A program made the position numbers and the translations under genes. Under the pieces are notes generated by a model that searched no databases, was not told where the DNA came from, and saw only the letters and a list, made by a program, of their open reading frames with translations. 64,000 nucleotides of DNA, taken from the NCBI GenBank assembly GCA_947625125.1, contig CANQNF010000008.1, positions 1-64,000 of the forward strand. The letters run 5' to 3'. Shown piece after piece: positions 4,633-33,997 of the stretch. Source of the DNA: an uncultured Clostridia bacterium (GTDB lineage: Bacteria; Bacillota; Clostridia; Oscillospirales; Ruminococcaceae). Each line of letters starts with the position of its first letter. Position 1 is the first letter of the stretch.

Positions 4633-4823
4633 GGCGGCAAGAGTGGGGACGGGGTAGCCTTTATTTCGGGTATTTCAAGCACGATACCCGCGGGAAAAAT
4701 ATACAAATGCCGATATTTTCGGTTATGCGCTATCAACGTATCGGCATACATTTCGCTTCCAAGCGTCTTTTTTGATATTAAATCCCACATATCGCCCGAA
4801 ATTGTTGTATAAGTTTTAGGCAT
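4608..4823 (-). CDS. Tail protein X (GpX, LysM-like)
   Basis: MPKTYTTISGDMWDLISKKTLGSEMYADTLIAHN...FPAGIVLEIPEI. Confidence 0.85.
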   Translation of the reverse strand: MPKTYTTISGDMWDLISKKTLGSEMYADTLIAHNRKYRHLYIFPAGIVLEIPEIKATPSPLLPPWKRGGAI

Positions 4824-9030: not shown

Positions 9031-9091
9031 GTTGTCACCCCTTCCGATAAAATGTATCGAGCGGGGAACGGTCCCCGCTCGACGAAGCGCC

Positions 9092-9675: not shown

Positions 9676-9733
9676 ATATAAACCTCCATAATTTTTTTGA
9701 TAGAATAATCGGCGGGAAATTCCCGCCGATTGT

Positions 9734-10252: not shown

Positions 10253-10267
10253 ATTCTTTTACCTCCT

Positions 10268-11716
10268 TTACGCTGCAAGTGCCGCCGTGACATACGACGA
10301 ATCGTATTCAAGGACAAATTCGATTTCCTTTGCGGGGGAAGGCGGCGTAATGTAAATATGGAAAGTGGCTTTTCCTGCCATAAGCTCGGTTGTGGGGTTT
10401 TCACTTTCCAAGAACTCAACGCGCCCGCCTAAGAGCTTTTCTTCGGACGACAAGCCGTTAAGCCATATATTTATACTGTCGACAATGCTATCGACAAAAC
10501 GGCGCGTGAACTTGCTGTCAACCTTGCTCCAATAGGTAAGAATAAGGGAATTGCTCACCCACGCAAAAGTACGCGAAACGCAAAGGAAATAATCCTTTAC
10601 GTCGGTGTTGGCGGGGTAACAAGCCGTTTCGTTGCCCCACAAAACAAAGCCGCCGATAAAGTTAAGAGCGGTCACAATGCCGTTGCTGTTAAGATAATTT
10701 GCCTGTGTAATATCAAGCAAAACTTCAGTACCGTCTGCAAGTACGGTGCTGTCAATCTGCATTGTCTTGTTGGAAGCGCTTTCGCACGGGCAACCGTCGT
10801 TTTTGGCGTCAACCGTTGCAATAAGCCCCGCCCACTGTGTAGACATATGAAACAGACGGTCGCCGAGCTTGCACATCGGGAAGCAAAGGCTTTCGGTCTT
10901 TGCGCTGATGTTCTTTGACTTTTTCCACGCGGGAACGTCCGCATAATGCCGAACGGCGGTTGTGTCAACGTCGATAAGCGCATTTGCCTTGAACACTCCG
11001 TTAATGGTAGACTTTGCGTTCATTATAGCCGCAACTTCCGAATCCTGACTCCAACCGGGGCAAATGATAATATCGGGAACAACGCCGAACTTCGGGAAAA
11101 CTGCTTCGATAAGCTCAAATCCCGTTGTCTGCTTTGTTACGACATTAAAGCCGCCGATAATATCGGTTTTTGTAATCTGCGAAGTGTCGACTTTATCAAA
11201 GCCGATTGTAAGCTCCGCTGTTTCGGGCGGAATCGTCCCTTCGCCCAAAATCTCAACGGCAAGGTTTTCGCCGTCGTAATACACTTCGTAATCGTCGCCG
11301 AGCGTGTATTCATCAACGACGACCGTTTCGGCGATTGCTTCGAGCGGCAAAAGCACACGACCGTCCGTTACGGGATAACTTTGTTTTGCGACGGTTGCTT
11401 TGTGCTTTGAGGGGTCAAGGACATTGACGAAAATAACAGGAGCGGTGTTATATAATCTGAAATGATTATACATAACCTCGCAAAGCGTATATTTAGCCCA
11501 ATCATCACTATACCCCAAGGCGCTTACCGTTTCGGGATAATTCCCGCCGTACACGGGAACATTGACGTTTGCGTATGCGTCGCCGTCGCCGCTCTTGCCG
11601 AGCATATGCACTGGAGCGGTGCCGACGACAAACGTTATACCGCTATCGGCTACAACGGGAGTTGATACCGAGGTAGCGGCTTCACGCGATTTTACGCCGT
11701 GATAATATTCTGCCAT
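10268..11716 (-). CDS. Phage tail sheath protein (P2 FI-like)
   Basis: 482 aa; MAEYYHGVKSREAATSVSTPVVADSGITFVVGTAPVHM... typical contractile sheath. Confidence 0.95.
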   Translation of the reverse strand: MAEYYHGVKSREAATSVSTPVVADSGITFVVGTAPVHMLGKSGDGDAYANVNVPVYGGNYPETVSALGYSDDWAKYTLCEVMYNHFRLYNTAPVIFVNVLDPSKHKATVAKQSYPVTDGRVLLPLEAIAETVVVDEYTLGDDYEVYYDGENLAVEILGEGTIPPETAELTIGFDKVDTSQITKTDIIGGFNVVTKQTTGFELIEAVFPKFGVVPDIIICPGWSQDSEVAAIMNAKSTINGVFKANALIDVDTTAVRHYADVPAWKKSKNISAKTESLCFPMCKLGDRLFHMSTQWAGLIATVDAKNDGCPCESASNKTMQIDSTVLADGTEVLLDITQANYLNSNGIVTALNFIGGFVLWGNETACYPANTDVKDYFLCVSRTFAWVSNSLILTYWSKVDSKFTRRFVDSIVDSINIWLNGLSSEEKLLGGRVEFLESENPTTELMAGKATFHIYITPPSPAKEIEFVLEYDSSYVTAALAA

Positions 11717-11722
11717 GATTCT

Positions 11723-12049
11723 TTAATCTCCTTTCGTTCTGATTTTAGCGGCAACGTCCTGATAATACTTGCTTAAAGCGTTGCCGCCGTTCTGCAACTT
11801 TGCCTTTGCGTCTGCAAGACTTGAAACGGGTACAAAAAGCCGCTCAACGCCGGGATAACGGCTTACGGCTTCCTTGTGGTACTCCATTATTTCGGCATAA
11901 GTGCCGATTAAAACGGCATTGCTTTTAAGCCGACCGCCCGGCAAAGACGGTCCGACGTATACAAAATTCTTTACGCCGTTGTACTTTGCGGCTTCTGCCG
12001 CTTTTGCCGTGTCCGATTCGGACACAACGGGTATGTTATTCTTCGACAT
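11723..12049 (-). CDS. Hypothetical phage protein between sheath and tail-completion genes
   Basis: 108 aa ORF, tight operon spacing. Confidence 0.7.
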   Translation of the reverse strand: MSKNNIPVVSESDTAKAAEAAKYNGVKNFVYVGPSLPGGRLKSNAVLIGTYAEIMEYHKEAVSRYPGVERLFVPVSSLADAKAKLQNGGNALSKYYQDVAAKIRTKGD

Positions 12050-12575
12050 GGTGTATATGTACCTCCCTTTTTATTGTTGGCATTTCCCATTTTGTAAGCA
12101 TTTCGCCCAAGTAGTAAGGGCTTGTATCGTCTGGATATACGACAAATTCAAGCGGGCGACGAAGCAAGAATTGTTTCCCCACCTCTCCCGCTTTAAGAAG
12201 CGCCGTTTGTATGCGCGTGAGTACGTTTAATAGGTCAACCGCCCCTATTCCGCCGTCCTCCGAATACGTCGCAACCACAATCCGTATTTTGCATTCGCTG
12301 TCCTCTTCCTCTCCGGGCTGTTGGTCGTCCGTTTCGCTGAGAAATTGCAAGACTATATACGGAATCCTGTTTGTTTCCGCGTCTTTATCGGGTAAACGCA
12401 TAAGGTGAACTTCGGGCGCGCGCTCTGTTATGATTTCGCCCCCTGCCGTATCGACCGCCCCCGAATCAATGCCGGGGTAGGTCTTGTTCTTTACCGGGCG
12501 AACGGGCAAAATAATGTCCTTTGTGGCGTCCTCTATGAATTTTTTTAATTCTTGAAGCAATACAACCGCCGTCAA
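12036..12575 (-). CDS. Hypothetical phage head-tail/tail completion protein
   Basis: 179 aa ORF in syntenic position between tail Z-like gene and sheath. Confidence 0.7.
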   Translation of the reverse strand: MTAVVLLQELKKFIEDATKDIILPVRPVKNKTYPGIDSGAVDTAGGEIITERAPEVHLMRLPDKDAETNRIPYIVLQFLSETDDQQPGEEEDSECKIRIVVATYSEDGGIGAVDLLNVLTRIQTALLKAGEVGKQFLLRRPLEFVVYPDDTSPYYLGEMLTKWEMPTIKREVHIHHVEE

Positions 12576-12590
12576 TCGCTCGCCCCCTTT

Positions 12591-13145
12591 TTAGGTATAC
12601 CCGTTCAAAATGCGGGATATTTCGTGTTCGACACGTTTATTTATCGTTTCCATTGCGGCGGATTCCACTTTTTCAAGCACTTCTGCGTTTTCAACCATGT
12701 GCGCCGCTGACGGTCCGAAAAGCTGTACCGACGAATCGCGGGCGGCTGTTTCCCGCTCAAATACTCCTACACCGTGTCCCAAATCTGCGACAAAAGCGTG
12801 TAATAACCGCTGACCGCTGCCGTTCGCAAGAACGGAAACGGTAACGTGCTTTCGTTTCGGCTGTTTGGGGTCAACGTTGAATTTCATAAGGGGTATAAGC
12901 GTACCGCCGTAAGATATTGTCGCTTCGAGCTTTGACGGTCCCGCTCGGCTTACATTTATATTTCGGTTGCTTGTCAAATCTCCGTGCTTAATTTTATATG
13001 TCTGTCGGACGTATTTACTTGACTGCGAAACAACTGTACCCGTCGCACGATTCAGAACGTTATATATTACTTTTTGCGGCGCATTTTTTACGCCGCCAAG
13101 TAAAGTGTTTATTCTGTCGACCTGCTCGCTCGTTATTTCTATCAT
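12591..13145 (-). CDS. Minor tail protein Z-like (GPZ family)
   Basis: 184 aa; NVLNRATGTVVSQSSKYVRQTYKIKHGDLTSNRNINVSRA typical of GPZ-like proteins. Confidence 0.75.
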   Translation of the reverse strand: MIEITSEQVDRINTLLGGVKNAPQKVIYNVLNRATGTVVSQSSKYVRQTYKIKHGDLTSNRNINVSRAGPSKLEATISYGGTLIPLMKFNVDPKQPKRKHVTVSVLANGSGQRLLHAFVADLGHGVGVFERETAARDSSVQLFGPSAAHMVENAEVLEKVESAAMETINKRVEHEISRILNGYT

Positions 13146-13483
13146 TCGTCTAACATCTCCAAATCAAGCGTAATTTCGCCCATATCATAAGCGACATGGG
13201 CGATATTATAAGAAGTGCCGTCAAGCACAATGGGCGTATTTTTACGCGGCACGATTCCGAGGTCGTAAAAAGACATATACGCGGTAATATCAGCGGCAAA
13301 AATGCCCTCCGAATGGTCTGTTGAGGGTTTCACCCTCTCCCGCGCTTCTGCACTGTCAATAATAACGGATATGCTGTATTCTCTGCCGTTGTATTTGACG
13401 TTTACTTTGTCGGCGTGTTCATCTGCATTATTGAACACGGCGGCAATATCACGCTTGACTTGCTCTTTGAAGCCCGCCGCCAT
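13142..13483 (-). CDS. Head-tail joining/attachment protein (hypothetical)
   Basis: 113 aa; small ORF after the capsid gene, syntenic. Confidence 0.6.
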   Translation of the reverse strand: MAAGFKEQVKRDIAAVFNNADEHADKVNVKYNGREYSISVIIDSAEARERVKPSTDHSEGIFAADITAYMSFYDLGIVPRKNTPIVLDGTSYNIAHVAYDMGEITLDLEMLDE

Positions 13484-13486
13484 AGA

Positions 13487-14539
13487 TTAAAGCACGGTAG
13501 CGACGAACCAACTGTCGACTTCGTGCGGAACGGGAAGCGGAGAACTGTTAAGCTGCAAGAAACGACGCGCGGGCTTTCTTTCCGCCCAAGTGTCGGGTAC
13601 TCTTGCGCCCTCGATTGTAACGAAGGTTTCCTGCTCTGCTCCCTTGTTGCTGAGAATGGTAATCGCTCCGTAATACATGGAGTAATTCGCCGCCGTCGAA
13701 AGAAGCGCAACGGTCCCCGCGGGAACGAGGGGTTTGCTTTCGGGCTTGCCCGGCGTCGTCCAATCGTCTAAATACCACTCGTTATAAGAGTAGATGTCAA
13801 GCCCAAGCGCCGAAATTGTGCCGACGTAAGTTGCGCCGTTCGGAAGCTCGCGGGGCTTGATTGAAGCGACGTCGTATGCCTTTGTGTCGCAAACCTTCAT
13901 AACCTTTTCGTTTGCAAGGAAAACGTCAACAACATCGTCCGCCATTATGCAGACGTCGCAATTGACAAATCCCGTTTCCTGCACCTTTTTGCGCCAACGT
14001 TTCAAGTCGGCTATCGGGTCGGCTCCTGTAGCGTTCCACTTTTTCGATACGCTTTCCTTGTTGGTAAAGCCGAAGTCGATTTCCTCGTTGAGCGATTCGC
14101 CGATAATCGGGATTTTACCCGTGAAAATTGCTTGCGCGCACATCCATTCTTCACGGCGGGTTATCATTTCGTCAAGCTCTGCGAAGTCGTCCGCCATTTT
14201 GCGTACTGCTCTGTCGGCGGGCGTAAGCCCGTCGTAAAGCGATTCGCCCGGTGCGCGGGTCAAAATGTCGTCAACGGTTGTGATTTTGTCGGGCGCGATA
14301 TAAGGCGGGGTATAAGTGTTTGTTTTATATCCCGTGTTCGGTACGGTTTTGCCGCCTATACGCCTATTTACAAAAGGCGCAAGCGCTCTGTTGCCCTTTT
14401 TGAAGTCAACGTCGACACTAAGCGTTGAAAACGTCTTAATGTGCTTGAAAAAAGTTGACTTAATGAACGTGCGGACGGGGGGCATACGCTGCACGAGCTT
14501 CCCCATTGTGCGGGGGTCGTAAATGCTTATATTAGGCAT
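13487..14539 (-). CDS. Major capsid protein E (lambda GpE-like)
   Basis: 350 aa; MPNISIYDPRTMGKLVQRMPPVRTFIKSTFFKHIKTFSTLSVDVDFKKGNRALAPFVN typical. Confidence 0.93.
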   Translation of the reverse strand: MPNISIYDPRTMGKLVQRMPPVRTFIKSTFFKHIKTFSTLSVDVDFKKGNRALAPFVNRRIGGKTVPNTGYKTNTYTPPYIAPDKITTVDDILTRAPGESLYDGLTPADRAVRKMADDFAELDEMITRREEWMCAQAIFTGKIPIIGESLNEEIDFGFTNKESVSKKWNATGADPIADLKRWRKKVQETGFVNCDVCIMADDVVDVFLANEKVMKVCDTKAYDVASIKPRELPNGATYVGTISALGLDIYSYNEWYLDDWTTPGKPESKPLVPAGTVALLSTAANYSMYYGAITILSNKGAEQETFVTIEGARVPDTWAERKPARRFLQLNSSPLPVPHEVDSWFVATVL

Positions 14540-14557
14540 TGTGTCTTTTCCTCCTTT

Positions 14558-14920
14558 TTAGTCCTTTAAGTAGATTCCGATTTTGCGGAAATACGGCTTC
14601 ACCTTTTCGGCGGTGACTGTATCCGCCAAGCAAAGAGCGCTTGCGAAAAATTCGCCCGTGAGATAATAAACTACCTCGCCGCTCTCTTTTGCATTGTCTG
14701 CCGCAATACCGATAAGGTCAAACGGCTTCGGCTCCTCCTCCTGCTCCGCTGCGGTTATCATTTCCGCCGTTAGCTCCTCGATACCCGTTTCGCCCTGAAC
14801 AAGCGGCGCGTATTTGCGTATAGTTGCCGAAGGCTTGATTTTGCCGTGGTCGGTAACTATGGGAAAATCGCCCGCAATAAAGTTGTCGGGGGTCATTTCG
14901 CGTTTCTGAACTTCGTACAT
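14558..14920 (-). CDS. Head decoration protein D-like
   Basis: 120 aa; PDNFIAGDFPIVTDHGKIKPSATIRKYAPLV; just upstream of the capsid gene. Confidence 0.8.
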   Translation of the reverse strand: MYEVQKREMTPDNFIAGDFPIVTDHGKIKPSATIRKYAPLVQGETGIEELTAEMITAAEQEEEPKPFDLIGIAADNAKESGEVVYYLTGEFFASALCLADTVTAEKVKPYFRKIGIYLKD

Positions 14921-14935
14921 TGCAATACCTCCTTT

Positions 14936-16060
14936 TTACTTTGCGTCGCTGAACATACGGTCAATTGCTTTCCCGAAGGGGTCGTCGTCCTCTGGGACTT
15001 TTCCGCCCTCGCTGCCGCTTGACTGTACTTTGTCCGCGTTGCTGTCCTTTACGTCGGCGTCGACGTCGGCAAGATAATTCTTGCCCTGTTCTTTCTGTTT
15101 GGAAATAATCGCCATTGCAACATTGGCGGCGCTTTCGGGCTTCTCAAACTTTGCCTTGTTGATAATGTCCTCAAACCCCGGAATCGCCACGCTTTCAATG
15201 TCTTTTATGCGTGTGCGCTCTTCGGCGGCGGCGTCGGTGGCAACCTGTGCCACGAGCGCGGGATATGCCGCCCGTAATTCTTCCACGTTGCGGATTTCTG
15301 CATTGTTAGCCATGCTTTCAACTCCTTTTTTATTATTTATATTTGTAAAATCGCCGCCGCGGTTGTTGTGGCGATTAAACAACGATGTTGGTATGTTGGG
15401 ATATTCGCCCGTATCAATGGAAACGGAATTTACGACGATATGCGTTGCGTCCTCGACCTCTGTTTCGACGTTACCAAACATAATTTCATCACAAAAGCCG
15501 TTGTCGACCGCCTGTTGCCCGTCGTACCATGTTTCTTTATCCATTAACGCCGATATTTCGGATTGGTCCTTACCTGTTTTTAAGGCGTACCCCGTTATAA
15601 TAGAGTTTTTAATAACCTCCAATTCCTCGGAGAGTTTAGAGAACTGCGCGGCGTCATAATATCCGTAAGCCCCCATTTTGGGGTTATGAATCATAAAGAC
15701 GCCATTTGCGGGAATCAATATTTTATCGCCCGCCATTGCGATTATTGTTGCCGCCGACGCTGCCCAACCGTCTATTTTTACGGTTATTTTGGCGGCGTGG
15801 TCTTTTAGACGTGCATATATAGCATTTGCGGCGAACACGTCGCCGCCGCCGCTGTTGATTCTTACAATGATTTCGTCAACATTTCCGAGGGCGTTTAAGT
15901 CGTCGCTGAAGCTCTGCGGGGTTATATCATCGTCAAACCATGAATACGTTGAAATATCCCCGTACAATATCAATTCGGCGGGTTTGTTGTCTTTTGCGGC
16001 AACAAAATTCCAAAACTTGTTTATTTCCTGCACACTTTTAGGCTTTTTGATTTTTGGCAT
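14936..16060 (-). CDS. ClpP-like head maturation protease
   Basis: 374 aa; ILYGDISTYSWFDDDITPQSFSDDLNALGNVDEIIVRINSGGGDVFAANAIYARLKDHAAKITVKIDGWAASAATIIAMAGD. Confidence 0.93.
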   Translation of the reverse strand: MPKIKKPKSVQEINKFWNFVAAKDNKPAELILYGDISTYSWFDDDITPQSFSDDLNALGNVDEIIVRINSGGGDVFAANAIYARLKDHAAKITVKIDGWAASAATIIAMAGDKILIPANGVFMIHNPKMGAYGYYDAAQFSKLSEELEVIKNSIITGYALKTGKDQSEISALMDKETWYDGQQAVDNGFCDEIMFGNVETEVEDATHIVVNSVSIDTGEYPNIPTSLFNRHNNRGGDFTNINNKKGVESMANNAEIRNVEELRAAYPALVAQVATDAAAEERTRIKDIESVAIPGFEDIINKAKFEKPESAANVAMAIISKQKEQGKNYLADVDADVKDSNADKVQSSGSEGGKVPEDDDPFGKAIDRMFSDAK

Positions 16061-17567
16061 TGCTGTATACCTCCTGCAATAATGCTTCTTCTCGTTTAAG
16101 CTGACGGATATTTTTATAATAATCTCCGCCCGCTATTTCCTGTGCTTCCTTTGAACGTGTGGAAAAGCCGTTTTTTACCCTTAATTCCGCCGACGTAACC
16201 TCTTGAACGGGGTTTAATAAGCCTTGTGCCGGTCCGTTCCATTCCGCGCCGCTGTATGCTTTCCTTATAGCGGCGTCTGCAAAGAATCCCGGCGCTTTTA
16301 TGCGTCCTTTGGCAACCGCTTCGGCGAGCCATTCTTCGTATATAGGTTGGCAAAAATCGGTTGCAAGCCAATTTCGATACATACGAAACGACTTCCACGC
16401 TTCGAGCAACGCCCCGCGGGACGCGCTGTAAGACGACGTAAAATGCTTTACAAGTAATTCATACGGGATTTCAAGAGCCGCACCGATTTGTCGGCTTATA
16501 GAAACGACAAACGTATCAAAATTTGCGTTTGGTCTGCCGGGGCTTACCGCATTTGCGGTTTCGCCTTCTGCAAGGTCGATAATCGAGCCGTTGCCGATTT
16601 CAATATCGTTCGGCGCGTTGCTCACTTGCTCCGATTCGGGGATAACTTCGCCAATATCGCCGTCACCTGAATTTTCACTCTTTTGAATAAAAACGGCAAA
16701 CATTCCCGATACAACGGCGGCGACAAGCTCGGCGTCCGTGTATCGTCCAAGCTGTTTGAGGGCTTCAATCACGGGGGCAAGGAACGGAACGCCGCGCCGC
16801 TGCCCGATTCTTTCCCTGTTCATCAAGTGTAAGACATTGCGCCGCCCCGTTCTTTCTCCATAAGCCTTAACGCGCGTCCACTTTGGGGATTCAGTGCAAT
16901 CGTCTGACAACGGGTGTATATTAAGTATGTGATACGCAACTACCTCGCCCGCTTCGTTCGTTTCAACTCCGCCGATTATATTCGGGTTGTTTTCGCTTCC
17001 TAACGGGGTACACACACGGTCCGCTTCGATAAGCTGAATCCTCAAATCGTATGGCGTATTTTTTCGGGTCGTTTTTGGCAGAAGCGTAATAACATCTCCC
17101 GACATTAGCCAATTGAGAAAAACAAGTTGTTGAAGCTCGGCAAAATTGTCAAGCCGTTCAATATCGCACGATGTTGTTTCCGCCCATAAAGCAAACTCCC
17201 GCTCTATGTCGTTTTCGAGCTTTTCCGCCTGTTCCTCCGATATGCCTAAATGTTCATAATCAATTTGGCTTTTCAGAACAAGCCCGCGCCCGACAACGTT
17301 TGTACGCATTGTTTTTAACGCGCCCGCTGCGAGCGGTACACCCATATATAAATCACGGGAGCGTTCACGCAAAACGCTTAAATTGTTTTGTATATCCTCT
17401 TTGGCACTTCCGCCGTGATAGAGCCAACCCAAAAGCGATTTTTTCGTTCGTGAAGCTCCGTAATTGCTGTAACCGCTGTTAATGATTTGCAAGCGCTGTC
17501 GCGCTCCAACTCGCTTTAATCCCGCTTGCGGAGAAATGGCGGTTATTATCCTGTCAAGTACATTCAA
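16038..17567 (-). CDS. Phage portal protein, lambda family
   Basis: 509 aa; typical lambda-type portal motifs (FTSSYSASRGALLEAWKSFRMYRNWLATDFCQPIYEEWLAEAV). Confidence 0.95.
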   Translation of the reverse strand: MNVLDRIITAISPQAGLKRVGARQRLQIINSGYSNYGASRTKKSLLGWLYHGGSAKEDIQNNLSVLRERSRDLYMGVPLAAGALKTMRTNVVGRGLVLKSQIDYEHLGISEEQAEKLENDIEREFALWAETTSCDIERLDNFAELQQLVFLNWLMSGDVITLLPKTTRKNTPYDLRIQLIEADRVCTPLGSENNPNIIGGVETNEAGEVVAYHILNIHPLSDDCTESPKWTRVKAYGERTGRRNVLHLMNRERIGQRRGVPFLAPVIEALKQLGRYTDAELVAAVVSGMFAVFIQKSENSGDGDIGEVIPESEQVSNAPNDIEIGNGSIIDLAEGETANAVSPGRPNANFDTFVVSISRQIGAALEIPYELLVKHFTSSYSASRGALLEAWKSFRMYRNWLATDFCQPIYEEWLAEAVAKGRIKAPGFFADAAIRKAYSGAEWNGPAQGLLNPVQEVTSAELRVKNGFSTRSKEAQEIAGGDYYKNIRQLKREEALLQEVYSNAKNQKA

Positions 17568-17581
17568 TCATTATCACCCCT

Positions 17582-17818
17582 TTACAAATCGCGCGGCACG
17601 GCTCTGTAAAAACGGTTGCGTCCTTTTCCGCTGTTTATTTTTTCAAGCTCTGCAACTTTGTTTTGCCAAAATTTAATTTGTTCGCGCACCTCTCCCAAAT
17701 CGGCGCGTGTCAACGAGCGAGTGCCAATTTTATAGCTCTGACTTACTGCGATTTCCTGCTCGGCTGTTAGCCAAGCGTCAAGATGTTTTCTTGCAACCTC
17801 AATTGTTATTCCTGCCAT
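17582..17818 (-). CDS. Small head-tail connector (GpW/DUF6148-like)
   Basis: 78 aa between TerL and portal; ITIEVARKHLDAWLTAEQEIAVSQSYKIGTRSLTRADLGEVREQIKFWQNKV. Confidence 0.75.
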   Translation of the reverse strand: MAGITIEVARKHLDAWLTAEQEIAVSQSYKIGTRSLTRADLGEVREQIKFWQNKVAELEKINSGKGRNRFYRAVPRDL

Positions 17819-19686
17819 TACGAAATACCCTCCGAAATTGTTTTTCTTCCTCTACGCTTAACGGGCGCGGCGGGTTTGTCTGCTGATTCCTGCTTTTTTA
17901 GCACAACGCCCGAAATTTCTAACGCGGCTTGTGCATAATTTCGGCAGTCGAGCGGTTCGTTTCGCCGTGTGCCGTTTTCTTTGAGCTTCCAAACGTATTG
18001 TGCTTTGCCCTGCTTATATGTCAAAACCATTCTTTCGGCTGTAAGCCCTTTGAAATAGTCCTCCGTATAGCCCCGGTCTTTTTCTTTTGGAAAATGACAA
18101 TAGTTTGCGCCTTCCTCCGTTACTGCAAGCGATTGATATATCAACGCTTTGCCCGTATCAACTCCGAGAGTAAACAACGGCGTTTTTGCGCGGTTGTTTT
18201 TGGAGGGGCGCGGAATATAAGGGGCGTCAAACCCGCCTTTCCCTCGGATTGCAAAAACTCCGCGTGAGTATCGGGCTTTGCAAAAGGCGCATACCTGATT
18301 GAAAAAATGCCCTCCCGAATCCATACAAGTACGCATTATTTTTAATTTAGCGCCGTCCGCCCTTGTAAATGTCTGATTCAAAAAGGCGTCTAAATCCTCC
18401 CAAACCGCATTTTGTTTCGGGTCGCCATAAATGATTTGATATTTAATTCCCCAACTCTCACGGTCCGCGCCCCAACCGACAACTTCAACCTCGAATCGGT
18501 CGTCTTGCGTGTCAATGCCCGCCGTTAAATAAATTACCTCCGCGGGGACTTCGCAATTATACTTTTCTCGGCGATTATATAAAGCGTCGTGGTCGATTTC
18601 GTTGCCCTCTTCCTCCCACGTTTGCCCCATTTCTGTATTAGTCCACGCTTTGAGCAATTCAATATTGCCTTTTTTCTTTTCCTCGTTTGCTATCAAGAAA
18701 TTTTCAACAATTTCTTTCCAATCTGCGAATGGCGAAGCAAGGCTATTCAAATAAAATCCGCGTACTTCCCGTTCGGGAAAACGCGGTATAAATTTTCCTT
18801 GTATAAAGTTTTCTTTCCATTCGACTTCGCTGCTGATAACTCCGCATTTAGAACAAACATACGAGATTTCATTCAAATTTTCTTTATCAAATTTCACTTG
18901 CCCCCATTCGAGCGGCTGATATTCTCCGCAAGCCGGACAAGGCACTTGCCAAATCTCTTGTGTGCTGTTTTCAAATTCAATTTCGATTCTCGATACGCCT
19001 TTGATTGTTGGAGTTGAAATAAAAACTTCTTTTCTGTTCCAAAATGTAGTTAATCGCTTTGAAGCGAGCAAAAGCGGGTCGCCGTCTTTTCCTGCCGTTG
19101 CGGGGTATGCGTCTATTTCGTCCGCAAGCAAAACGCGAATCGGACGGGAGCGTAAACCCGAAGGGGAGTTAGCGCCGACAATAGTTATATGCCCGCCCGG
19201 AAATTCCTTGTGTAATATCGTGTTTCCGCTGTTTCTTGTTTTGTCGTTCACCTTTCCGCGCAACGCGGGGGTGTCGTTCAACATCGGAGTTAGTCTGTCT
19301 TTTGAAAACGATTCGCCGATTTGTAAATTCGGTTGCATTACCATTATTGGGGACGGGTCATAATCCATAAAATAGCCTATTGGATTTAATATAAACCCGT
19401 CTGTTTTTCCGATTTGGGCGGCGGACATTACAACGACCTTCGGCACGGATAAATCGGAAATTGCGTTCATTATTTCTTTTTGATACGGTGCTTTGCTCGT
19501 TTTCCAACGTCCCGGCTCCGCCGAAGATTTCTTTGACAAAACGCGCTTTGCGTCCGCCCATTCCGTGAGTGTCATATTTGGCGGAGGTTTCAAAACTGAA
19601 AAAATCCGCTCAAACAGTTTTGTCGTTTGCGCTTTCGTTGTCGTTTCCTCCCTCTCCGAACATACCGTCAAAGTCGGCAAGCTCAT
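17818..19686 (-). CDS. Terminase large subunit, GpA family
   Basis: 622 aa; TLTEWADAKRVLSKKSSAEPGRWKTSKAPYQKEIMNAISDLSVPKVVVMSAAQIGKTDG... Confidence 0.95.
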   Translation of the reverse strand: MSLPTLTVCSEREETTTKAQTTKLFERIFSVLKPPPNMTLTEWADAKRVLSKKSSAEPGRWKTSKAPYQKEIMNAISDLSVPKVVVMSAAQIGKTDGFILNPIGYFMDYDPSPIMVMQPNLQIGESFSKDRLTPMLNDTPALRGKVNDKTRNSGNTILHKEFPGGHITIVGANSPSGLRSRPIRVLLADEIDAYPATAGKDGDPLLLASKRLTTFWNRKEVFISTPTIKGVSRIEIEFENSTQEIWQVPCPACGEYQPLEWGQVKFDKENLNEISYVCSKCGVISSEVEWKENFIQGKFIPRFPEREVRGFYLNSLASPFADWKEIVENFLIANEEKKKGNIELLKAWTNTEMGQTWEEEGNEIDHDALYNRREKYNCEVPAEVIYLTAGIDTQDDRFEVEVVGWGADRESWGIKYQIIYGDPKQNAVWEDLDAFLNQTFTRADGAKLKIMRTCMDSGGHFFNQVCAFCKARYSRGVFAIRGKGGFDAPYIPRPSKNNRAKTPLFTLGVDTGKALIYQSLAVTEEGANYCHFPKEKDRGYTEDYFKGLTAERMVLTYKQGKAQYVWKLKENGTRRNEPLDCRNYAQAALEISGVVLKKQESADKPAAPVKRRGRKTISEGIS

Positions 19687-21813: not shown

Positions 21814-22821
21814 CTAATGACTTTGTATTGTTTCGAGCGTATCAATAATAAAGTCAAAAATTCTCGTGTCCTCGCCCGGTTTGAACAAATCAAACCGCTT
21901 TTCGTTCATAAAGTCGACCGCTGCGGCGGCTTTTTCCGAAGCCGTCATTTCCGCGAAGTCAACATCTGCGGGCGTTTCCTGCTCTGCGTCCTGCCCCTCG
22001 GAGAAATCGGGCGGCGTTTCCGGGTAAGATTTCGGCGGGGCTTCCTCCGAAGATACGGGCGCGGATTCCTGCTTTTTCTCTTTTACGTCGCCTATTGATA
22101 AACCGCCTTTTTCCCGATACTCTGTATAGGCTTCTTTTTGCTTTTCCCCGCTCATTCCCGATAATTCGTAAGCGGCTGACAATCCGAGCCGCCCGCCCTT
22201 AAATTCCTCGGTAAATTCCGGCGAGAGATTTTTTTCAATTACGCTCATACGCGCAATTTGTGTCGGAGATGTGTTGAGGGCTTCGGCGACTAAATCGCGG
22301 ACGCGCCCCGTCAAGCCGTCGCGTTTTTTGAGCGCTTCAAAGCATTTTCTCAATTCCTCCGCCTGTTTCATTTTTTCATAATCCGACAATTCGCGCGTTG
22401 TGGAATTTGTCATAATAAGCAAAATCCGTTCTTCTATTTCGTCCCGCTCCGACTGTACGCTACACGGTACATACTCAAATTCGGTTTTGCCCTCGTTGCA
22501 AAGCTCCATACAAGCGCGGTGGCGGCGGTGTCCTGCTATTATTTCATATTTGCCGTTCGGCAAGGGCTTGACAATCAAATTTTGTTGAACTCCGAATAGC
22601 TCAATAGAATTTTTCAATTCGTCTATGCTGTCCACGGAATAAAAGTTTGATTCAGAAGCTACAAGGTCATGTATATTAAGCGGTTTTATTATGCTTTTTT
22701 GCGGATAAAACGGAAAATCACCCTTTGCTTCTGCAACTGATGTTTTTTCGTCCGCCGTATCGCGCGGCGTCTGAAGTGATGTTTTGCTTAATAGCTCGTT
22801 TAGATTGAATTTTCCCGACAT
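21814..22821 (-). CDS. parB: ParB-like partition protein
   Basis: 335 aa; ...FGVQQNLIVKPLPNGKYEIIAGHRRHRACMEL... ParB N-terminal motif; directly downstream of ParA. Confidence 0.92.
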   Translation of the reverse strand: MSGKFNLNELLSKTSLQTPRDTADEKTSVAEAKGDFPFYPQKSIIKPLNIHDLVASESNFYSVDSIDELKNSIELFGVQQNLIVKPLPNGKYEIIAGHRRHRACMELCNEGKTEFEYVPCSVQSERDEIEERILLIMTNSTTRELSDYEKMKQAEELRKCFEALKKRDGLTGRVRDLVAEALNTSPTQIARMSVIEKNLSPEFTEEFKGGRLGLSAAYELSGMSGEKQKEAYTEYREKGGLSIGDVKEKKQESAPVSSEEAPPKSYPETPPDFSEGQDAEQETPADVDFAEMTASEKAAAAVDFMNEKRFDLFKPGEDTRIFDFIIDTLETIQSH

Positions 22822-22823
22822 GA

Positions 22824-23615
22824 TTATTTACCTCCCGTTGTGTCCGATTCGGACACGGATTCTAAATATTCCGAAACAAGCGCGATATAATCGCGCGACG
22901 CCCCGCACCACCTTGAATACTCAATAATCGGCAGATTCGCAAAGGTGCTTTCGTCGACCTTCGCCGTTCGCCTTATGTGAGTATTAAAAACGGGGTATTC
23001 GGTATTTTCTCTTAGCCAATTTTCGCCCTGCTTGTTGACGTCGTTATTTTGATACGAGGTTATAAAGCACCCCCGCAATGTCAACGACGGGTTGAGGTCG
23101 TCGCGCACTATGTCGATTTGTTCTTTTAACTCCGCCAAGCCGTCAAAAGCGAAATTGTCAATTTTTATCGGTATTATTACGTCGTCGGACGCCACAAGAG
23201 CGTTAATTGTGCTGATGTTTATATCCGGGGCGCAATCTATGACGCAATAATCGTATTCGTCTGAAATGCGCTTAAATGCTGCGCGCAACCGTGTTTGTTG
23301 CGGTCTGCCCGTATCTAAAAGCACTTGTAAATTTGCTTTTAACAACGTCATATTTGCGGGTATAACGTCAAGGCTCTTATACTGCGTCGGCTTTATGATG
23401 TCGTGTATCTCTGCTTCACGGTCGGTCAAAAGCTCGGCGACGGTCCGCGAATTATAGCTATGAAGCCCAAACATTTTTGAAATGTTCCCTTGCTTGTCGT
23501 TGTCTACAAGCAAAACGCGCTTTCCGTGCATTGTCGCCATGATATGGGCGATGTTGGCGGCGGAAATGGTCTTTGCAACTCCGCCTTTAAGGTTGATAAC
23601 CGATATTGTTTTCAT
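22824..23615 (-). CDS. parA: ParA-like partition ATPase
   Basis: 263 aa; ISVINLKGGVAKTISAANIAHIMA deviant Walker A; YCVIDCAPDINISTINALVASDDVIIPIK. Confidence 0.94.
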   Translation of the reverse strand: MKTISVINLKGGVAKTISAANIAHIMATMHGKRVLLVDNDKQGNISKMFGLHSYNSRTVAELLTDREAEIHDIIKPTQYKSLDVIPANMTLLKANLQVLLDTGRPQQTRLRAAFKRISDEYDYCVIDCAPDINISTINALVASDDVIIPIKIDNFAFDGLAELKEQIDIVRDDLNPSLTLRGCFITSYQNNDVNKQGENWLRENTEYPVFNTHIRRTAKVDESTFANLPIIEYSRWCGASRDYIALVSEYLESVSESDTTGGK

Positions 23616-24920: not shown

Positions 24921-25137
24921 TTCCTTTTTCCTCCAATCTGTATTTAACATTCAAAATACTTTCAATGGCGGCGCGCTGACTTTTGCCCGTTTCGCCTATA
25001 TTCAAAATATTTTCCATACATTGAACGACCGCCGCGGTGCCTGGGCTTACGCCCGCTTCGTGCATACATTCGGGGCATATTTCAAACTCGCTCGGAATCT
25101 CCGCGCCGCAATTCAAACAACGTGCGGACGCTTTCAT
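24913..25137 (-). CDS. Small zinc-ribbon hypothetical protein
   Basis: 74 aa; CLNCGAEIPSEFEICPEC two CxxC pairs. Confidence 0.7.
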   Translation of the reverse strand: MKASARCLNCGAEIPSEFEICPECMHEAGVSPGTAAVVQCMENILNIGETGKSQRAAIESILNVKYRLEEKGIV

Positions 25138-26615
25138 ATATCGCCCCTGACAACGGCTATAATGCCCCTAAAAACCCGCTCGGCGCAAAGCACAGTCAAA
25201 CTATTGCCGAGCGCCGTATAACGCGCCTTGTCGATGATTTCGCCGCCTGTGGAGGTGTATTTAGTCCAACGGTCCGGGAATCCCTGCAAGCGTTCACATT
25301 CAAGGGGTGTAAGCCGCCGCAACTCATATCGGATAAAACACGCAATGTTATGTATTATCGCTATAAACTCCCGCTCTTTGCCGCTGCGCGCTCCCGTTCC
25401 TCGGTAATAGTTGGCGTCAAGCGTTCCCGTTATGCCGTTGCCCGATGAATTTAACGCTAAAACGATATTTTCCGAGCCGCCCCCGTAATCTCCGCCGTTT
25501 GCCCTTAATGTTCCGCAACCCTCCCTATATCCGCTGCGGCTGTAATTCTCATACATTGAAACGACTAAATCCGACGAACTGTAACCGTGCTTTCCTGCGC
25601 TCGCTCGCATTGTCCCGAATCCTGCTTTATATGCGCTGTGTGTACTCGGCGTAAAGCATACGGCGGCGACGGCGGGACGTTCTGCAACTGTCAAGGTCAG
25701 CGCGGGGTCGTTTTCTTTCCCGATTATAAAGCCGTTTGCGTCGCGGTTTAACGAGGGGTCGCGTATCGGGTAAACCTCGTTCATAAAATACAATCCCGTT
25801 GGGGAGCCTCCCCCTCCGTCCGAAGCCGTTATTGTTCGTGATTTGTCGGGGTTAATATAGATTCTGTCGCCTGTTCGTCCAAAATCAACAACGGCGTTTC
25901 CGTTATTATCCCCGCTCGGAGCTTCAAAACTGCCGACAAAAGCGGCGGCAACGTCTTGTTTTTCCTTTCGGCTCTTTTTAATATACCCAAGCACGCTTTC
26001 GCGCTCAAAGAGTATTTGCGGGGCGCGGTTGGCTCTAAAATCTCCCACAAGGTAGATTCGTTTTCGACGTTGGGGTACTCCCCAATATTCACTATCGAAA
26101 AGTCGCCAAGCGATATTTGCCCCCCCTGCGGAACCTCCAACCATTCCGGCTGTCGCCCATTTTCCACTACAAGGCATTGAAATACGGGTCTTTGTGATTT
26201 CTTCAATAACGGTCCTGAAGTCGTTACCTCCGTTGCTCGAAAACGCTCCCGCGACGTTTTCCCAAATAATAAATGTCGGGTACTTTCCATTTGTCGCTTC
26301 CCTCATTTCGTAAATAATCCGTACTGCTTCGTGAAATAGCTTGCTCCGCTCTCCGTCGATTCCCGCTTGATTCCCCGCAACACTCAAATCCTGACACGGC
26401 GAGCCGAAAGAAATAATGTCGACGGGCGGAATCTCGCCGCCTTGCAATTCTGTGATGTCGCCTAAATGCGCCATGTGCGGAAAGTGGCGTTTTGTTATTT
26501 CAATGCAATTTGATTCGATTTCAGACGCCCAAACCGCTTTTATTCCGCAACGCTGCGCCGCAAGAGGGAAGCCGCCGATTCCGTCGAATAGGCTTCCCAA
26601 TGTTAGATTTTTCAT
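25134..26615 (-). CDS. DNA (cytosine-5-)-methyltransferase
   Basis: 493 aa; LGSLFDGIGGFPLAAQRCG, FGSPCQDLSVAG, WENVAGAF, RYTALGNSL motifs. Confidence 0.96.
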   Translation of the reverse strand: MKNLTLGSLFDGIGGFPLAAQRCGIKAVWASEIESNCIEITKRHFPHMAHLGDITELQGGEIPPVDIISFGSPCQDLSVAGNQAGIDGERSKLFHEAVRIIYEMREATNGKYPTFIIWENVAGAFSSNGGNDFRTVIEEITKTRISMPCSGKWATAGMVGGSAGGANIAWRLFDSEYWGVPQRRKRIYLVGDFRANRAPQILFERESVLGYIKKSRKEKQDVAAAFVGSFEAPSGDNNGNAVVDFGRTGDRIYINPDKSRTITASDGGGGSPTGLYFMNEVYPIRDPSLNRDANGFIIGKENDPALTLTVAERPAVAAVCFTPSTHSAYKAGFGTMRASAGKHGYSSSDLVVSMYENYSRSGYREGCGTLRANGGDYGGGSENIVLALNSSGNGITGTLDANYYRGTGARSGKEREFIAIIHNIACFIRYELRRLTPLECERLQGFPDRWTKYTSTGGEIIDKARYTALGNSLTVLCAERVFRGIIAVVRGDI

Positions 26616-26624
26616 GCTGTCCTC

Positions 26625-27614
26625 CTAAAAAAGCCTTGTTTGCAACTCTGCCTGACTTATTCGGCGCTCTGCAATGGCGGCATATTCTGGGTTGATTTCA
26701 AAACCTAAATAATCTCGCTCGTTTTCGACGGCCGCAACAGCTGTCGTTCCGCTGCCGATAAACGGGTCAAGTATTAAATCGCCCTTTTTACTTCCTGCCA
26801 AAATACAAGTTTCCGCAAGCTCTTTCGGATAAGCGGCGAAGTGTGCTTCTTTAAGCGGCCGCGTTGAAATGCTCCATACATCACGTTTATTTCTTTTTGG
26901 GCGGTAATCGTAAATATTACCCGATTTTGTTCTATAAAACGATTCAGGCGTTTCGGTATATTTGCGGCCGCCAAATCGCGGCTTTTTGGCTTGTATATTT
27001 TCATTTGTTGCGTTAGCACCTGCACAACGTCTTGCCGTGCTTTCAGATGTCGGCTCGCTGATTGCGTTTGCGTCAAAATAATATTTGGGGGATTTTGATA
27101 AAAGGAATATGTATTCATGACTTTTAGTGCAACGGTCCTTAACGGATTCGGGCATACAATTCGGCTTTTGCCATATTATATCCTGCCTTAGATACCAACC
27201 ATCGGAGCGCAACGCAAAGGCGAGCGCCCACGGAATACCGATTAAGTCTTTTACTTTTATTGTATCGTGCTTCCATTTTTGAGCAACTTTAATTTGTCCC
27301 AAGCTCCCGCGGTTGGAGCTTTGTTTTTCGGACATTCCTTTTTCACCGCCCCAACGGCCGCTGCCCCCTGCATAGCTATCGCCGATGTTGAGCCAAAGCG
27401 TACCGTTCGGCATTAGGACGCGCCGCACCTCGTGAAATACACTCACAAGTTTATCTATGTATTCTTCGGGCGTGCTTTCAGTCCCGATTCGCTCTTTGAC
27501 GTTATAATCACGAAGCCCAAAATACGGCGGAGAAGTAACGCACATATTTACTGTTTCGCTTTCTATGGCTCTAAGTCCTTCTAAAGCGTCTGATATTATT
27601 ATTTCGTTTCTCAC
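26625..27614 (-). CDS. Type II DNA methyltransferase (N4/N6 amino-methylase, TSPPY)
   Basis: 329 aa; MCVTSPPYFGLRDYN and DPFIGSGTTAVAA motifs. Confidence 0.95.
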   Translation of the reverse strand: MRNEIIISDALEGLRAIESETVNMCVTSPPYFGLRDYNVKERIGTESTPEEYIDKLVSVFHEVRRVLMPNGTLWLNIGDSYAGGSGRWGGEKGMSEKQSSNRGSLGQIKVAQKWKHDTIKVKDLIGIPWALAFALRSDGWYLRQDIIWQKPNCMPESVKDRCTKSHEYIFLLSKSPKYYFDANAISEPTSESTARRCAGANATNENIQAKKPRFGGRKYTETPESFYRTKSGNIYDYRPKRNKRDVWSISTRPLKEAHFAAYPKELAETCILAGSKKGDLILDPFIGSGTTAVAAVENERDYLGFEINPEYAAIAERRISQAELQTRLF

Positions 27615-27870: not shown

Positions 27871-28539
27871 TTAAAAATCAAGCCTTAATTGCGCCATTTC
27901 TCCGAGCAACCGCGCATTTGCCGCTTCGTAATATTCGCGGTCAATCTCAAAGCCTATAAAGTCCAATCCGAGGTTGTGACACGCAATAAGGCTTGACGCG
28001 CTCCCTGCGTGAGTGTCGATTATTTTGTCGCCCCTCTCCGCATAGTGTGTTAATATCCATTCGTAAAGCGCGACGGGCTTTTGCGTGGGGTGTATGCGGA
28101 TTTCCTTGTTTTTCATGTTTTCTTGTAACATACCGTGCCATTTGAATTTGAAACGGCGAACGGGGCTTGAAAATGACGTCCAAGCAAGCTCACAATCGGC
28201 GTATGTATTGTTTCCGTTGTCTTTATCCCATACAAGCCAACACGGGGAATCAAAGGGAATACGGCTTATAAAGTGATTCGCGCCCCATATTATTTGATTT
28301 TTGCTAACGCGCATAAGCTCGGCAAAATATTCGGCGGGCGGCGGGGATTTGTCCCAATTTTTACGGGTGTAAGCAACGGAAGGGGCTTTTGCGTTGCCGT
28401 CCTGCTTTCCTCCGCGCGGGTAATTGCTCGCGTTTATCCCATATGGCACATCTACAACGGCAAGCTCGAAATATTTATCGGGAAATTCCCGCATACCAAG
28501 CATACAGTCCATATTATAGAGCTTGTTTAATTCTAACGT
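27871..28539 (-). CDS. DNA adenine-type methyltransferase; possible non-AUG (ACG) start at 28539, otherwise ATG at 28512
   Basis: VDVPYGINASNY motif and C-terminal DTHAGSASSLIA; in-frame upstream TLELNKLYNMDCM with GGAGGG 8 nt before ACG. Confidence 0.85.
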   Translation of the reverse strand, partial: TLELNKLYNMDCMLGMREFPDKYFELAVVDVPYGINASNYPRGGKQDGNAKAPSVAYTRKNWDKSPPPAEYFAELMRVSKNQIIWGANHFISRIPFDSPCWLVWDKDNGNNTYADCELAWTSFSSPVRRFKFKWHGMLQENMKNKEIRIHPTQKPVALYEWILTHYAERGDKIIDTHAGSASSLIACHNLGLDFIGFEIDREYYEAANARLLGEMAQLRLDF

Positions 28540-28564: not shown

Positions 28565-29464
28565 TTATGTTTTTCGCCTTAATTTAAGATATAATCCCCA
28601 CCCGCGCGCTTCGCTGTAAACCGCTTTGAATCCGTACTCGCCGCCAATCAGTCTATAACCGGGGTATCGCTTTTCCCAATACTCCGATTCGGGCGGCGAC
28701 AACGCAATTTTGCGTACCTCTTTTCGGCTGAATTTGTGGTCGTTCGTCCTGCTCCACGGCTTTTGAAGATTTGCAGACGTTGAAAAGCGGCTCAATTCCT
28801 CTTTGGGCGGGGTGTCGGGGTCGATGATTTCTTTTTCGGGCTTGTCGAGGTTGTGCGACGGTCGCCAACACTTTTTACCGCTGCTTTGCTTTGCGAGGTA
28901 TTCACAAAGCGCCGCAAGCCCGCTTTCGTCCGGCTGTAATCGGTCGGCGTTGGCAAAGCCGATTTTATCGCCCTTTTTTTGCCCTTTTTTCTTTCTCTTT
29001 CTCCACAAATCTTCGATTTCGTCGCGCCCAAGCCCGCCGTTCATTACTATGTGATGATGTATGCGAGTGGGCGTTATGCCGTCTTTTTTGTATGTGCATA
29101 CGGGCGGGAGCGCCATATATTTTATTGGCGGCAAGCCCTCTTTTTTGCGCTTGTACGACACACGGCGGAGAAAATTGTTTAACTCGCGCTCGGCGTCCTC
29201 ATATGTGGGCGGCAAAGTCTTGTTTGTATACGTCAAAGTAACGTGCAAGTCGTTTTCGCCAAAGTTGGTATCAAGCAACTGCAAAAAATATCTTTTTGAA
29301 TTTATGTCGTTCAATTCCGCTTGCTTTGGGGTACTTTCGACTTTCTTTTTACTCCGAACCCCTCGCCGTGCGTTGTCCCGTTCACCCTGCGTATAATTGT
29401 AAATATCAACTTCCAAATAATCAGCGCCGCAATATATCTTTTTTTCTCGTACAAAATTTCTCAT
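28565..29464 (-). CDS. HUH-type rolling-circle Rep-like replication initiator
   Basis: 299 aa; HVTLTY, RIHHHIVMNGG (HUH), YLAKQSS (motif 3) motifs. Confidence 0.85.
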   Translation of the reverse strand: MRNFVREKKIYCGADYLEVDIYNYTQGERDNARRGVRSKKKVESTPKQAELNDINSKRYFLQLLDTNFGENDLHVTLTYTNKTLPPTYEDAERELNNFLRRVSYKRKKEGLPPIKYMALPPVCTYKKDGITPTRIHHHIVMNGGLGRDEIEDLWRKRKKKGQKKGDKIGFANADRLQPDESGLAALCEYLAKQSSGKKCWRPSHNLDKPEKEIIDPDTPPKEELSRFSTSANLQKPWSRTNDHKFSRKEVRKIALSPPESEYWEKRYPGYRLIGGEYGFKAVYSEARGWGLYLKLRRKT

Positions 29465-30166: not shown

Positions 30167-30184
30167 GGGCGGCTCCCGCCGCCC
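30167..30184 (-). repeat. GC-rich hairpin with GGGA tetraloop just downstream of VR-like sequence
   Basis: Minus strand GGGCGGC-GGGA-GCCGCCC, 6 nt after the stop codon of 30191..31162; no T run follows. Confidence 0.75.
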
Positions 30185-30190
30185 GCTCGG

Positions 30191-31162
30191 TTATTCGGTC
30201 GCGCGGTTAGCTGTTTTGCGGTAAAAAGCGGCACGGAAGCCGACGAGGGTGTCGACGCGGGAGCGCAAGTTGTTCAAGTAGAGAGCGAACACGCCCGCGT
30301 GCGCCGAGTTGAGCCAACTCCCGCCGCGAATCGGCAACCGCTCGCCGTTTTCGTCGGCAAATAAATACGATTCCTTGCCGCCCTCTCCGAGAGGATAAAT
30401 TGCAAGCGCTTTGACGATTTCGGGCGGGTCAATATCGAATTTTACGTTTTCCCACGGGTCGCCCCACCAAGTCGGCGAGCCGCTTTTCGGGACGTTGGTA
30501 ATTTTCAAGCCCTGATTCCGCGAAACGTCTACCCTTACGGGCTTACCGTCGCAAAGAATCGGCTTCCATAACGGGCTTGTCCTGCTCGCGTCAATACGAT
30601 TTGCGGCGTTGTTGTTTTCGATGATTTCAAAGCGCCCGTCCATAAGGCGCAATCCTGCGAGCATTTCCCACACATTGCCGCAAAGGTCATAAACCCCGAA
30701 CGGCGTACCGTCGTGCGCCCACGTCGACGGTCCGCTTCCCGCAAGCGTTTTCCCGCCGCCGCATACCGTTCCGCTTTCGTCGGGGCAACTGTGGCTTTTG
30801 CCATAATCCGTATTGCCGCGCGGCAACTCTCCGCGGGCGCTTTCAAGTGTGACAAGTCCCCATTCGGGAGCGGTCATTAAATGCCAACCCTCGCCCTTTT
30901 CAAAGCACATTTCCGACGCTTTTTCTAAGGAAATATCCGTTGCGGGCGGCATATACGGCAAGCTATAAGGCAAGCCGTTTATAATCGTGCAAGGGTATTT
31001 CGATATGTAAATTTCGTCGACTTCCTCGCCGTCGATTATAAAAGCGGGGTGCGTCTGATTTGAGCCGCCGAATAAGTCGGCGTTTGTTCTCTTTTCAAAC
31101 TTCACCATGATTGACGGTATACCCGCCTTGTCGAACACGACAACATTTTTTGCGTTAATCAT
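30191..31162 (-). CDS. FGE-sulfatase/C-type-lectin-fold protein, candidate DGR variable protein
   Basis: 323 aa; GTPFGVYDLCGNVWEMLAGLRLMDG and C-terminal LPIRGGSWLNSAHAGVFALYLNNLRSRVDTLVGFRAAFYRK, the signature of DGR target proteins. Confidence 0.88.
   Translation of the reverse strand: MINAKNVVVFDKAGIPSIMVKFEKRTNADLFGGSNQTHPAFIIDGEEVDEIYISKYPCTIINGLPYSLPYMPPATDISLEKASEMCFEKGEGWHLMTAPEWGLVTLESARGELPRGNTDYGKSHSCPDESGTVCGGGKTLAGSGPSTWAHDGTPFGVYDLCGNVWEMLAGLRLMDGRFEIIENNNAANRIDASRTSPLWKPILCDGKPVRVDVSRNQGLKITNVPKSGSPTWWGDPWENVKFDIDPPEIVKALAIYPLGEGGKESYLFADENGERLPIRGGSWLNSAHAGVFALYLNNLRSRVDTLVGFRAAFYRKTANRATE
30227..30325 (-). repeat. Candidate DGR variable repeat (VR)
   Basis: GGCGGGAGTTGGCTCAACTCGGCGCACGCGGGCGTGTTCGCTCTCTACTTGAACAACTTGCGCTCCCGCGTCGACACCCTCGTCGGCTTCCGTGCCGCT; expected variable codons nearly all NNC, consistent with mutagenised AAC codons. 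Confidence 0.65.
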
Positions 31163-31237
31163 TGTTTGAATCCTCCGTTTTTTAATTATTTTTAAGGCTT
31201 GCGCCTATGCGGGCGGTTTCTGCCGCCTGCTTGATTA

Positions 31238-31600
31238 TTAGGTTATACGAACTCCGACGCCAATATCGGCGTTGGGGTGCAAGCCGCTCGAATCAAGAGC
31301 AAATACGCCCGCGCCCGTCGAGCCGCTCAAATACCCTTCGGCGGCGGAAAACCGCAAAATTGTTTCCGTAAATTCGTTAATCGTGACGGTCGCGTTTCTT
31401 ATTGCGCTTGATAATCTTAAAGCCGCTATTTCAAGCGCATATGCGTTTATTCGCCCGCTCCGCATATCGTTGTAAAGGTCGTAATAACTGCGCGAATCTT
31501 CCGCCGCTGCGTTGTCAAGGATTCTTTGTTCTGATTTGTTGTACTGACATTCTGCAATCAGCTTTAAGCGGTATTTTGATTCCCTTTTTGTTAATCTCAT
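31238..31600 (-). CDS. Hypothetical protein with VR-like C-terminus
   Basis: 120 aa; C-terminal GSTGAGVFALDSSGLHPNADIGVGVRIT aligns without gaps to NSAHAGVFALYLNNLRSRVDTLVGFRAA of the neighbouring protein (13/28 identities by eye). Confidence 0.7.
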   Translation of the reverse strand: MRLTKRESKYRLKLIAECQYNKSEQRILDNAAAEDSRSYYDLYNDMRSGRINAYALEIAALRLSSAIRNATVTINEFTETILRFSAAEGYLSGSTGAGVFALDSSGLHPNADIGVGVRIT

Positions 31601-33727: not shown

Positions 33728-33997
33728 TCAACTCCTGTTTGGCGATTTTCTGTTTACTGCCCGATTGTGTCCGCGGCGGCGCATACTGTCTAATAATTCT
33801 TCATGCGCGTATACGGCGTTGTACCCTCTCCGCCCGTTGTCGTCAAGCTCTCCCGTGTACCCTCTTGCAAGCTCGCGGTATATCGTGGCAAGATGTACGC
33901 CAATTTCGGCGGCTATGTCGTTAGGCTTTGAGCCTGACGCATAGAGGGCTTCAATTTTCTTTCGGTCTTGAAGCGAAAGATACTTTTTGCAAGTCAT
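33728..33997 (-). CDS. HTH protein (IS30-like HTH_38 type)
   Basis: 89 aa; YLSLQDRKKIEALYASGSKPNDIAAEIGVHLATIYRELARG. Confidence 0.8.
   Translation of the reverse strand: MTCKKYLSLQDRKKIEALYASGSKPNDIAAEIGVHLATIYRELARGYTGELDDNGRRGYNAVYAHEELLDSMRRRGHNRAVNRKSPNRS

Follow-up and report, generated by a model that had tools for sequence, protein, structure and literature searches.

Phage diversity-generating retroelements (DGRs) are usually explained as diversifiers of tail tips. How, then, does a gene that looks like a DGR target come to lie among the early genes of a prophage, and what might its product bind? The question is raised by a stretch of 64,000 nucleotides (the window), namely positions 1-64000 of contig C8 (96,429 bp) from the genome of an uncultured Clostridia bacterium (3.17 Mb, 101 contigs). 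An earlier note, drawn from the sequence alone, had described the gene at 30191-31162 as an orphan DGR target in the early module of a prophage, with no reverse transcriptase (RT), Avd or template repeat (TR) recognisable in the 64 kb. The gene is a real DGR target and does lie in an early module (Table 1). The window itself yielded no intact TR, RT or Avd: scanning it and the remainder of its contig for the TR returned the variable repeat (VR) and one decayed copy, nothing else, and all RT matches in the genome are on other contigs. The target is nevertheless no orphan, since its TR, Avd and RT are found on contig C76, which appears to belong to the same prophage.

Table 1. Features of the window that bear on the DGR target (all on the minus strand)
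Feature	Position	Strand	Remark
Contig end within the gene of repeat-containing tail protein I	1..248	-	putative join to C76
Structural module, large terminase to tape measure	4816..19686	-	collinear with the relative G129:C8
ParB-like and ParA-like prophage genes	21814..23615	-	
DNA cytosine methyltransferase, early module	25134..26615	-	
DNA methyltransferase (type II-like)	26625..27614	-	
DNA methyltransferase (type II-like)	27871..28512	-	
Replication initiation protein, REP_ORF2-G2P, phrog_3584	28565..29464	-	recurrent neighbour of early-type targets
Hairpin GGGCGGC-GGGA-GCCGCCC, GRNA tetraloop	30167..30184	-	42 nt after VR end, 6 nt after stop
Early-type DGR target gene	30191..31162	-	323 aa; FGE/C-type-lectin fold, PHROG 2889, TaqVP fold
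Variable repeat (VR), 116 nt	30227..30342	-	11 mismatches to TR, all at TR adenines
Decayed hairpin GGCGG-CAGAAA-CCGCC after fossil VR	31212..31227	-	
120-aa ORF, no known family	31238..31600	-	3' end is the decayed VR
Decayed third VR	31247..31336	-	67-69% over 90 nt to TR and tail VR, AGVFAL frame
IS30-type HTH DNA-binding protein, start of early module	33728..33997	-	52% to Lagaffe gene near its early target

The target protein ends in ...RGGSWLNSAHAGVFALYLNNLRSRVDTLVGFRAAFYRKTANRATE. The fold comparison bears out its description as FGE/C-type-lectin-like, though against the FGE model of Pfam it scores weakly (21.4 bits, cut-off 23.3); the match to PHROG 2889 is unambiguous (1e-99). The AlphaFold model (pLDDT 92, pTM 0.92) has as best structural match PDB 5VF4, the DGR variable protein of a Thermus aquaticus prophage (TaqVP, TM 0.89, 34% identity), which it also matches in sequence over the full length (profile E 5.6e-101). 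The VR encodes residues 275-312 or so of the 323, which is the ligand-binding end of a protein of this fold. TaqVP differs in its setting: according to its description (PMC6328139), it is encoded in a cassette with its avd and TR and is not a second target in an early module.

A search of the genome with the VR returned two strong matches, both on C76 (6,750 bp). One is the TR (C76:3105-3220), which is 91% identical to the window VR over 116 nt (105/116); the other (C76:3694-3809) is the VR of a second FGE-type target. Adenines make up 24 of the 116 nt of the TR, and yet they account for 11/11 mismatches with the window VR (p=3e-9 against random placement), while 92/92 non-A positions are identical. 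The VR of the C76 target departs from the TR at 14 sites, all of them adenines (p=5e-12), and a comparison of one VR with the other gives 15 differences, again all at TR adenines. The changes in the window VR fall at codon positions 1 (seven) and 2 (four) and never at position 3, with AAC/AAT codons of the TR read as AGT, CTC, CAC, TAC, CGC, GAC and CTC. This is the mutation of AAC codons at A that the earlier note had expected; the 99-nt TR that it had reconstructed differs from the real one at a single base. It had also proposed a TR search of the genome, which led to the repeat on C76 next to a DGR-type RT, and had named three outcomes as contrary to a DGR target, none of which came about: TR and RT exist, variation is limited to A sites at codon positions 1 and 2, and the hairpin is kept in position in homologous genes. 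The near-identity of VR and hairpin in the two genes could suggest an ordinary paralogue with a recently duplicated VR end, which no DGR acts upon. This is hardly conceivable given the A-specific differences, which refute it in substance: only sites of TR adenines distinguish one VR from the other, the window VR departs from the TR solely in the first two codon positions, the genes are only about 40% identical outside the VR, and the early VR of each related phage matches its own TR and not those of others.

In the direction of transcription, C76 carries tail genes, the tail-type target (356 aa, 3682-4752), a hairpin, Avd, TR, RT, two small genes and an amidase-like gene, the last named by reading its sequence; C76 thus holds lysis genes as well. 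The 124-aa Avd matches NF033474 (97.8 bits, cut-off 80) and also PF22296. The RT (1791-2822) has the motifs IGNLTSQ, which fits the DGR-type GxxxSQ pattern, and YMDD, and it matches RVT_1 (1.6e-20); in NCBIfam and PADLOC it is met by other or generic RT models only, with the NCBIfam matches below cut-off.

The high end of C76 overlaps the low end of C8, exactly over 35 nt at their tips and with 96% identity over 191 nt, and the overlap sequence has no other match in the genome. The assembly breaks there within the gene of tail protein I, which contains tandem repeats (window 1-333, L035:6100-6750). In the closest relative, the prophage of Clostridia bacterium PG1894_111 (G129, BNZC01000008.1), a single contig holds RT, Avd, tail target, tail genes, capsid, terminase and ParAB, collinear with C76 followed by C8. 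Its early target is 64% identical to that of the window, and both its VRs derive from one TR, with 17/17 (early) and 16/16 (tail) mismatches at adenines. Since the assembly keeps C8 and C76 apart, we infer the join; the unique overlap and the collinear relative place the DGR just left of the window, about 34-35 kb from the target. The earlier note had suggested that the DGR acts in trans or lies left of the window, and the latter part holds, C76 probably extending the prophage past position 1, whereas action from another element is not needed. It is very unlikely that C76 comes from a different prophage, whose DGR would act in trans on this one. C8 and C76 are indeed separate contigs and the genome has several DGR cassettes, but the overlap sequence is unique to C76 and the left end of C8, the gene order of PG1894_111 is collinear across the join, and the tail module of the window stops where C76 starts. 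The trans reading was rejected on the unique join and the collinearity. The arrangement would thus be a single prophage whose one DGR has two targets: the first lies beside the RT, the second some 34 kb off in the early/replication module.

The prophage probably ends near 34.0-34.3 kb of the window, beyond which there are a WYL-domain gene and then rimP/nusA/infB-like genes, the latter read from sequence. This integrated prophage encodes ParA/ParB as well as a REP_ORF2-G2P-type replication initiator. The prophage of PG1894_111 has a 362-aa IS30-HTH-like protein past its lysis genes (L261:169-1257), and Faecalibacterium phage Lagaffe has an IS30-family integrase. The bacterial genome is rich in DGRs, as judged from at least four further A-biased repeat pairs near RTs (L036 on C15, L039 on C36, L041 on C55 and L042 on C40), with 16/16, 26/27 and 15/15 mismatches at A, and 82% for the C15 pair, which is on the other strand.

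The DGR of Bordetella phage BPP-1 transfers TR to VR with A-specific changes, and has an Avd and a hairpin after the VR; its target Mtd, a single tail protein whose gene adjoins the cassette, shares the FGE-type lectin fold with the window target (weak Foldseek match). Very probably, the window gene is one of two targets of a phage DGR of the standard type, and the remote one of the two. The DGR RT, with Avd, would copy TR RNA that originates at the tail/lysis end of the prophage, the bases opposite adenines being randomised during copying, and the cDNA would be homed into two VRs, that of the tail-type receptor-binding protein near the RT and that of the early-module paralogue about 34 kb off. 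Each VR would be marked by the shared sequence at its 3' end and by the hairpin with a GRNA loop downstream. This degree of confidence applies to the remote-target mechanism and not to the role of the early protein.

The putative homing signals are present on the VR side. The identity of VR and TR ends at GCCGCT, after which both VRs go on with TTTTT and the TR with CTACC. The perfect hairpin reported 6 nt after the stop is there and, folded as a single DNA strand, it is modestly better than shuffled sequences (z -1.7). Hairpins with a GRNA loop follow the VR at a distance of 37-45 nt (34-36 in a few cases) in 8/14 targets of the early type and 46/74 of the tail type, compared to 0.07% of shuffles. 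The stems differ (GGGCGGC, TTGGTGCGT, GGGGTGC, AGGGAGGCT and others), so what is conserved among homologues, as the earlier note had asked, is the position of the hairpin and not its sequence. The standard downstream hairpin was not found in 6/14 early-type targets, including two of the Lagaffe type (L173:31798-33060 and L131:8092-9390), where the VR is internal and the ORF runs about 100 aa beyond it.

The early placement, which the earlier note had called unusual, recurs in the related phages examined, and distal second targets are already published (PMC11792537, PMC12629997). With the RT as bait in IMG/VR and then the target profile, a second, separate target was found in 9/30 records (8/15 of the records that measure 45 kb or more), and both Lagaffe and Dulem virus 37 have one as well. 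These relatives in viral contigs were reached through the RT bait and the family profile, the window target as a query of the same contigs having given no confirmed relative. In 19 phages and prophages including that of the window, 237/260 mismatches between the early VR and its own remote TR are at A: G100 13/13, G113 9/9, G105 15/16, G109 12/12, G111 12/12, G108 11/11, G128 16/17, G114 12/21, G103 16/16 over 112 nt (16/20 if extended to 121 nt), Lagaffe 11/11, Dulem virus 37 16/20, G048 10/13, PG1894_111 17/17, Paenibacillus sanguinis 9/10, P. popilliae 10/11, Gemmiger An50 9/10, Sporofaciens musculi 15/17, Blautia MSJ-19 13/13 and the window 11/11. The weaker A-bias in G114, Dulem virus 37 and G048 suggests that some early VRs may be drifting. 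On a single contig, TR and early gene are about 39 kb apart in Sporofaciens and about 16 kb in Blautia; the targets are nearer each other in G128 (about 9 kb) and Gemmiger An50 (about 6 kb). At L105:9584-11050, an ORF runs in frame out of the TR region (LPIRGGNWNNGSSAGVFALNLNNARSN) and on into a long frame downstream, which overlaps the RT match.

The early VRs track their own TRs, with which they share 90-100% of non-A sites (at least 99% in 9/12, the others being G103 with 96%, Dulem virus 37 with 95% and G114 with 90%), compared to 47-90% with the TRs of other phages, except for the sister pair G108/G111 (98%). Between these two sisters, 14/16 early-VR differences are at TR adenines. Because early and tail genes are only about 40% identical elsewhere, the identity of VR and TR must be renewed by homing. 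The tracking and the G108/G111 differences may be taken as comparative rather than direct signs of homing activity, and homing is probably still active in this lysogen.

To judge by their sequences, early-type and tail-type targets are anciently separate paralogues. In a tree built without the VR, 13 early-type and 64 tail-type targets are split by one branch (UFB 100, SH-aLRT 98); the tree is unrooted and some of its branches are long, that of the window among them. As the early type is defined by position, the agreement of clade and position is a result and not an input. The tail-type N-terminus, scored as a simple motif, is found in 0/61 early proteins and in 69/97 tail proteins; some early proteins carry another N-terminal segment, and those of the Lagaffe/G048 type have about 100 aa after the VR. 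A scan of genomes at the species level, biased by its early-type query, contig ends and a single RT bait, gave 51 early-type targets (two from Paenibacillus being borderline), for 50 of which no RT was detected in the fetched ±10 kb, the remaining one having an RT 6.7 kb away; the tail-type targets of the same scan have an RT within 4 kb in 20/30 cases. Frequent neighbours of early targets are Rep, RecU-like, SSB and exonuclease genes (names except Rep read from sequence), and methyltransferase genes flank the window target. Among the 20 frequent neighbour families, only one was found beside a tail-type target, and once. The early protein of the window turns out to be a member of a separate family that is both old and widespread.

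Upstream of the target, the 120-aa ORF ends in ...AGVFALDSSGLHPNADIGVGVRIT, encoded by a decayed VR with an in-frame score of 34, compared to a maximum of 14 in 400 codon shuffles. Around the decayed hairpin that follows, 36 nt share 78% identity with the post-VR region. Only 14/35 mismatches of this fossil are at TR adenines and they are spread across all codon positions, so that homing into it has ceased. What is left may derive from a duplicated early target, since two such targets stand in tandem in an uncultured Lachnospiraceae genome (L216:8664-9653 and 9977-10966). The idea that it is the target of another DGR of this genome was dropped, as only C76 and the window VR match it among the RT-bearing stretches fetched. 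The decayed-VR gene is absent upstream of the early target of PG1894_111, and no relative of the ORF was found in viral contigs and phages.

Phage DGRs with two VRs have been described before. Two VRs with homologous targets were reported in 2024 for Lagaffe_CP (PMC11792537). Lagaffe (MG711461; PMC5883640, PMC11792537) resembles the window's prophage in having a single RT/Avd/TR cassette, placed after the tail genes, and two homologous targets, of which one is tail-type and FGE/MTD-like and the other lies in the early region close to an IS30-type HTH gene. Its annotated early genes are different, its early protein continues for about 100 aa after the VR, and the two early proteins are only 43.5% identical, in a comparison that covered the target and HTH proteins. 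In 2025, four inducible gut prophages were reported with a second VR distal to the RT cassette and near DNA methyltransferase genes (PMC12629997, Extended Data Fig. 3c), a likeness drawn from the published description. The window adds another case, and the pattern of an early clade at the level of the class may be new: no paper treating early-type targets as one ancient clade was found in the open-licence literature.

The early product is probably a binding protein that is diversified, is expressed early during infection or lysogeny and is not anchored to the tail. It is possible, if rather doubtful, that it is a second receptor-binding protein of the virion, two diversified adhesins widening the host range. 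Fold and family are common to both targets, no signal peptide is evident when the sequence is read by eye, and the authors of the Lagaffe study suggest a doubled host-range adaptation (PMC11792537). On the other hand, the gene sits in the replication/early module and almost no frequent neighbour families are shared with tail-type loci, the tail-type N-terminus is missing from every early protein scored, and in some members the N-terminal segment is a different one or about 100 aa extend the C-terminus beyond the VR; the missing N-terminus is not proof of absence from virions. Nearly an even chance can be given to a protein that acts in or on the host cell (anti-defence, superinfection exclusion, binding of a host factor), with the DGR diversifying a non-structural protein. 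The target's neighbours, here and in relatives, are methyltransferase and replication genes, the early targets form an ancient separate clade, and a second VR was noted near counter-defence genes in the four inducible gut prophages (PMC12629997). However, position alone is weak evidence, and a PADLOC search gave no family that matches the early protein. The preferred but unproven reading is that the early protein binds a variable intracellular or surface partner (a factor of defence, exclusion or a competing phage) and is not a second tail tip.

Roux et al. state that their own survey would not detect remote targets (PMC8144416). We tentatively propose, as a possibility rather than an expectation, that early-type targets are an ancient and widespread class of non-structural DGR substrates, antibody-like phage binders that would work in or on the infected cell in anti-defence, exclusion or competition between phages, and that would mostly have escaped notice because DGRs are detected by looking beside the RT. 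Here, two protein families of ancient separation are served by a single TR, and in many lineages the second family stays in register with its TR. The search rule that follows is to look for the early-type clade and not only near the RT, and the early-type set provides concrete, testable proteins for asking what else phages hypermutate.
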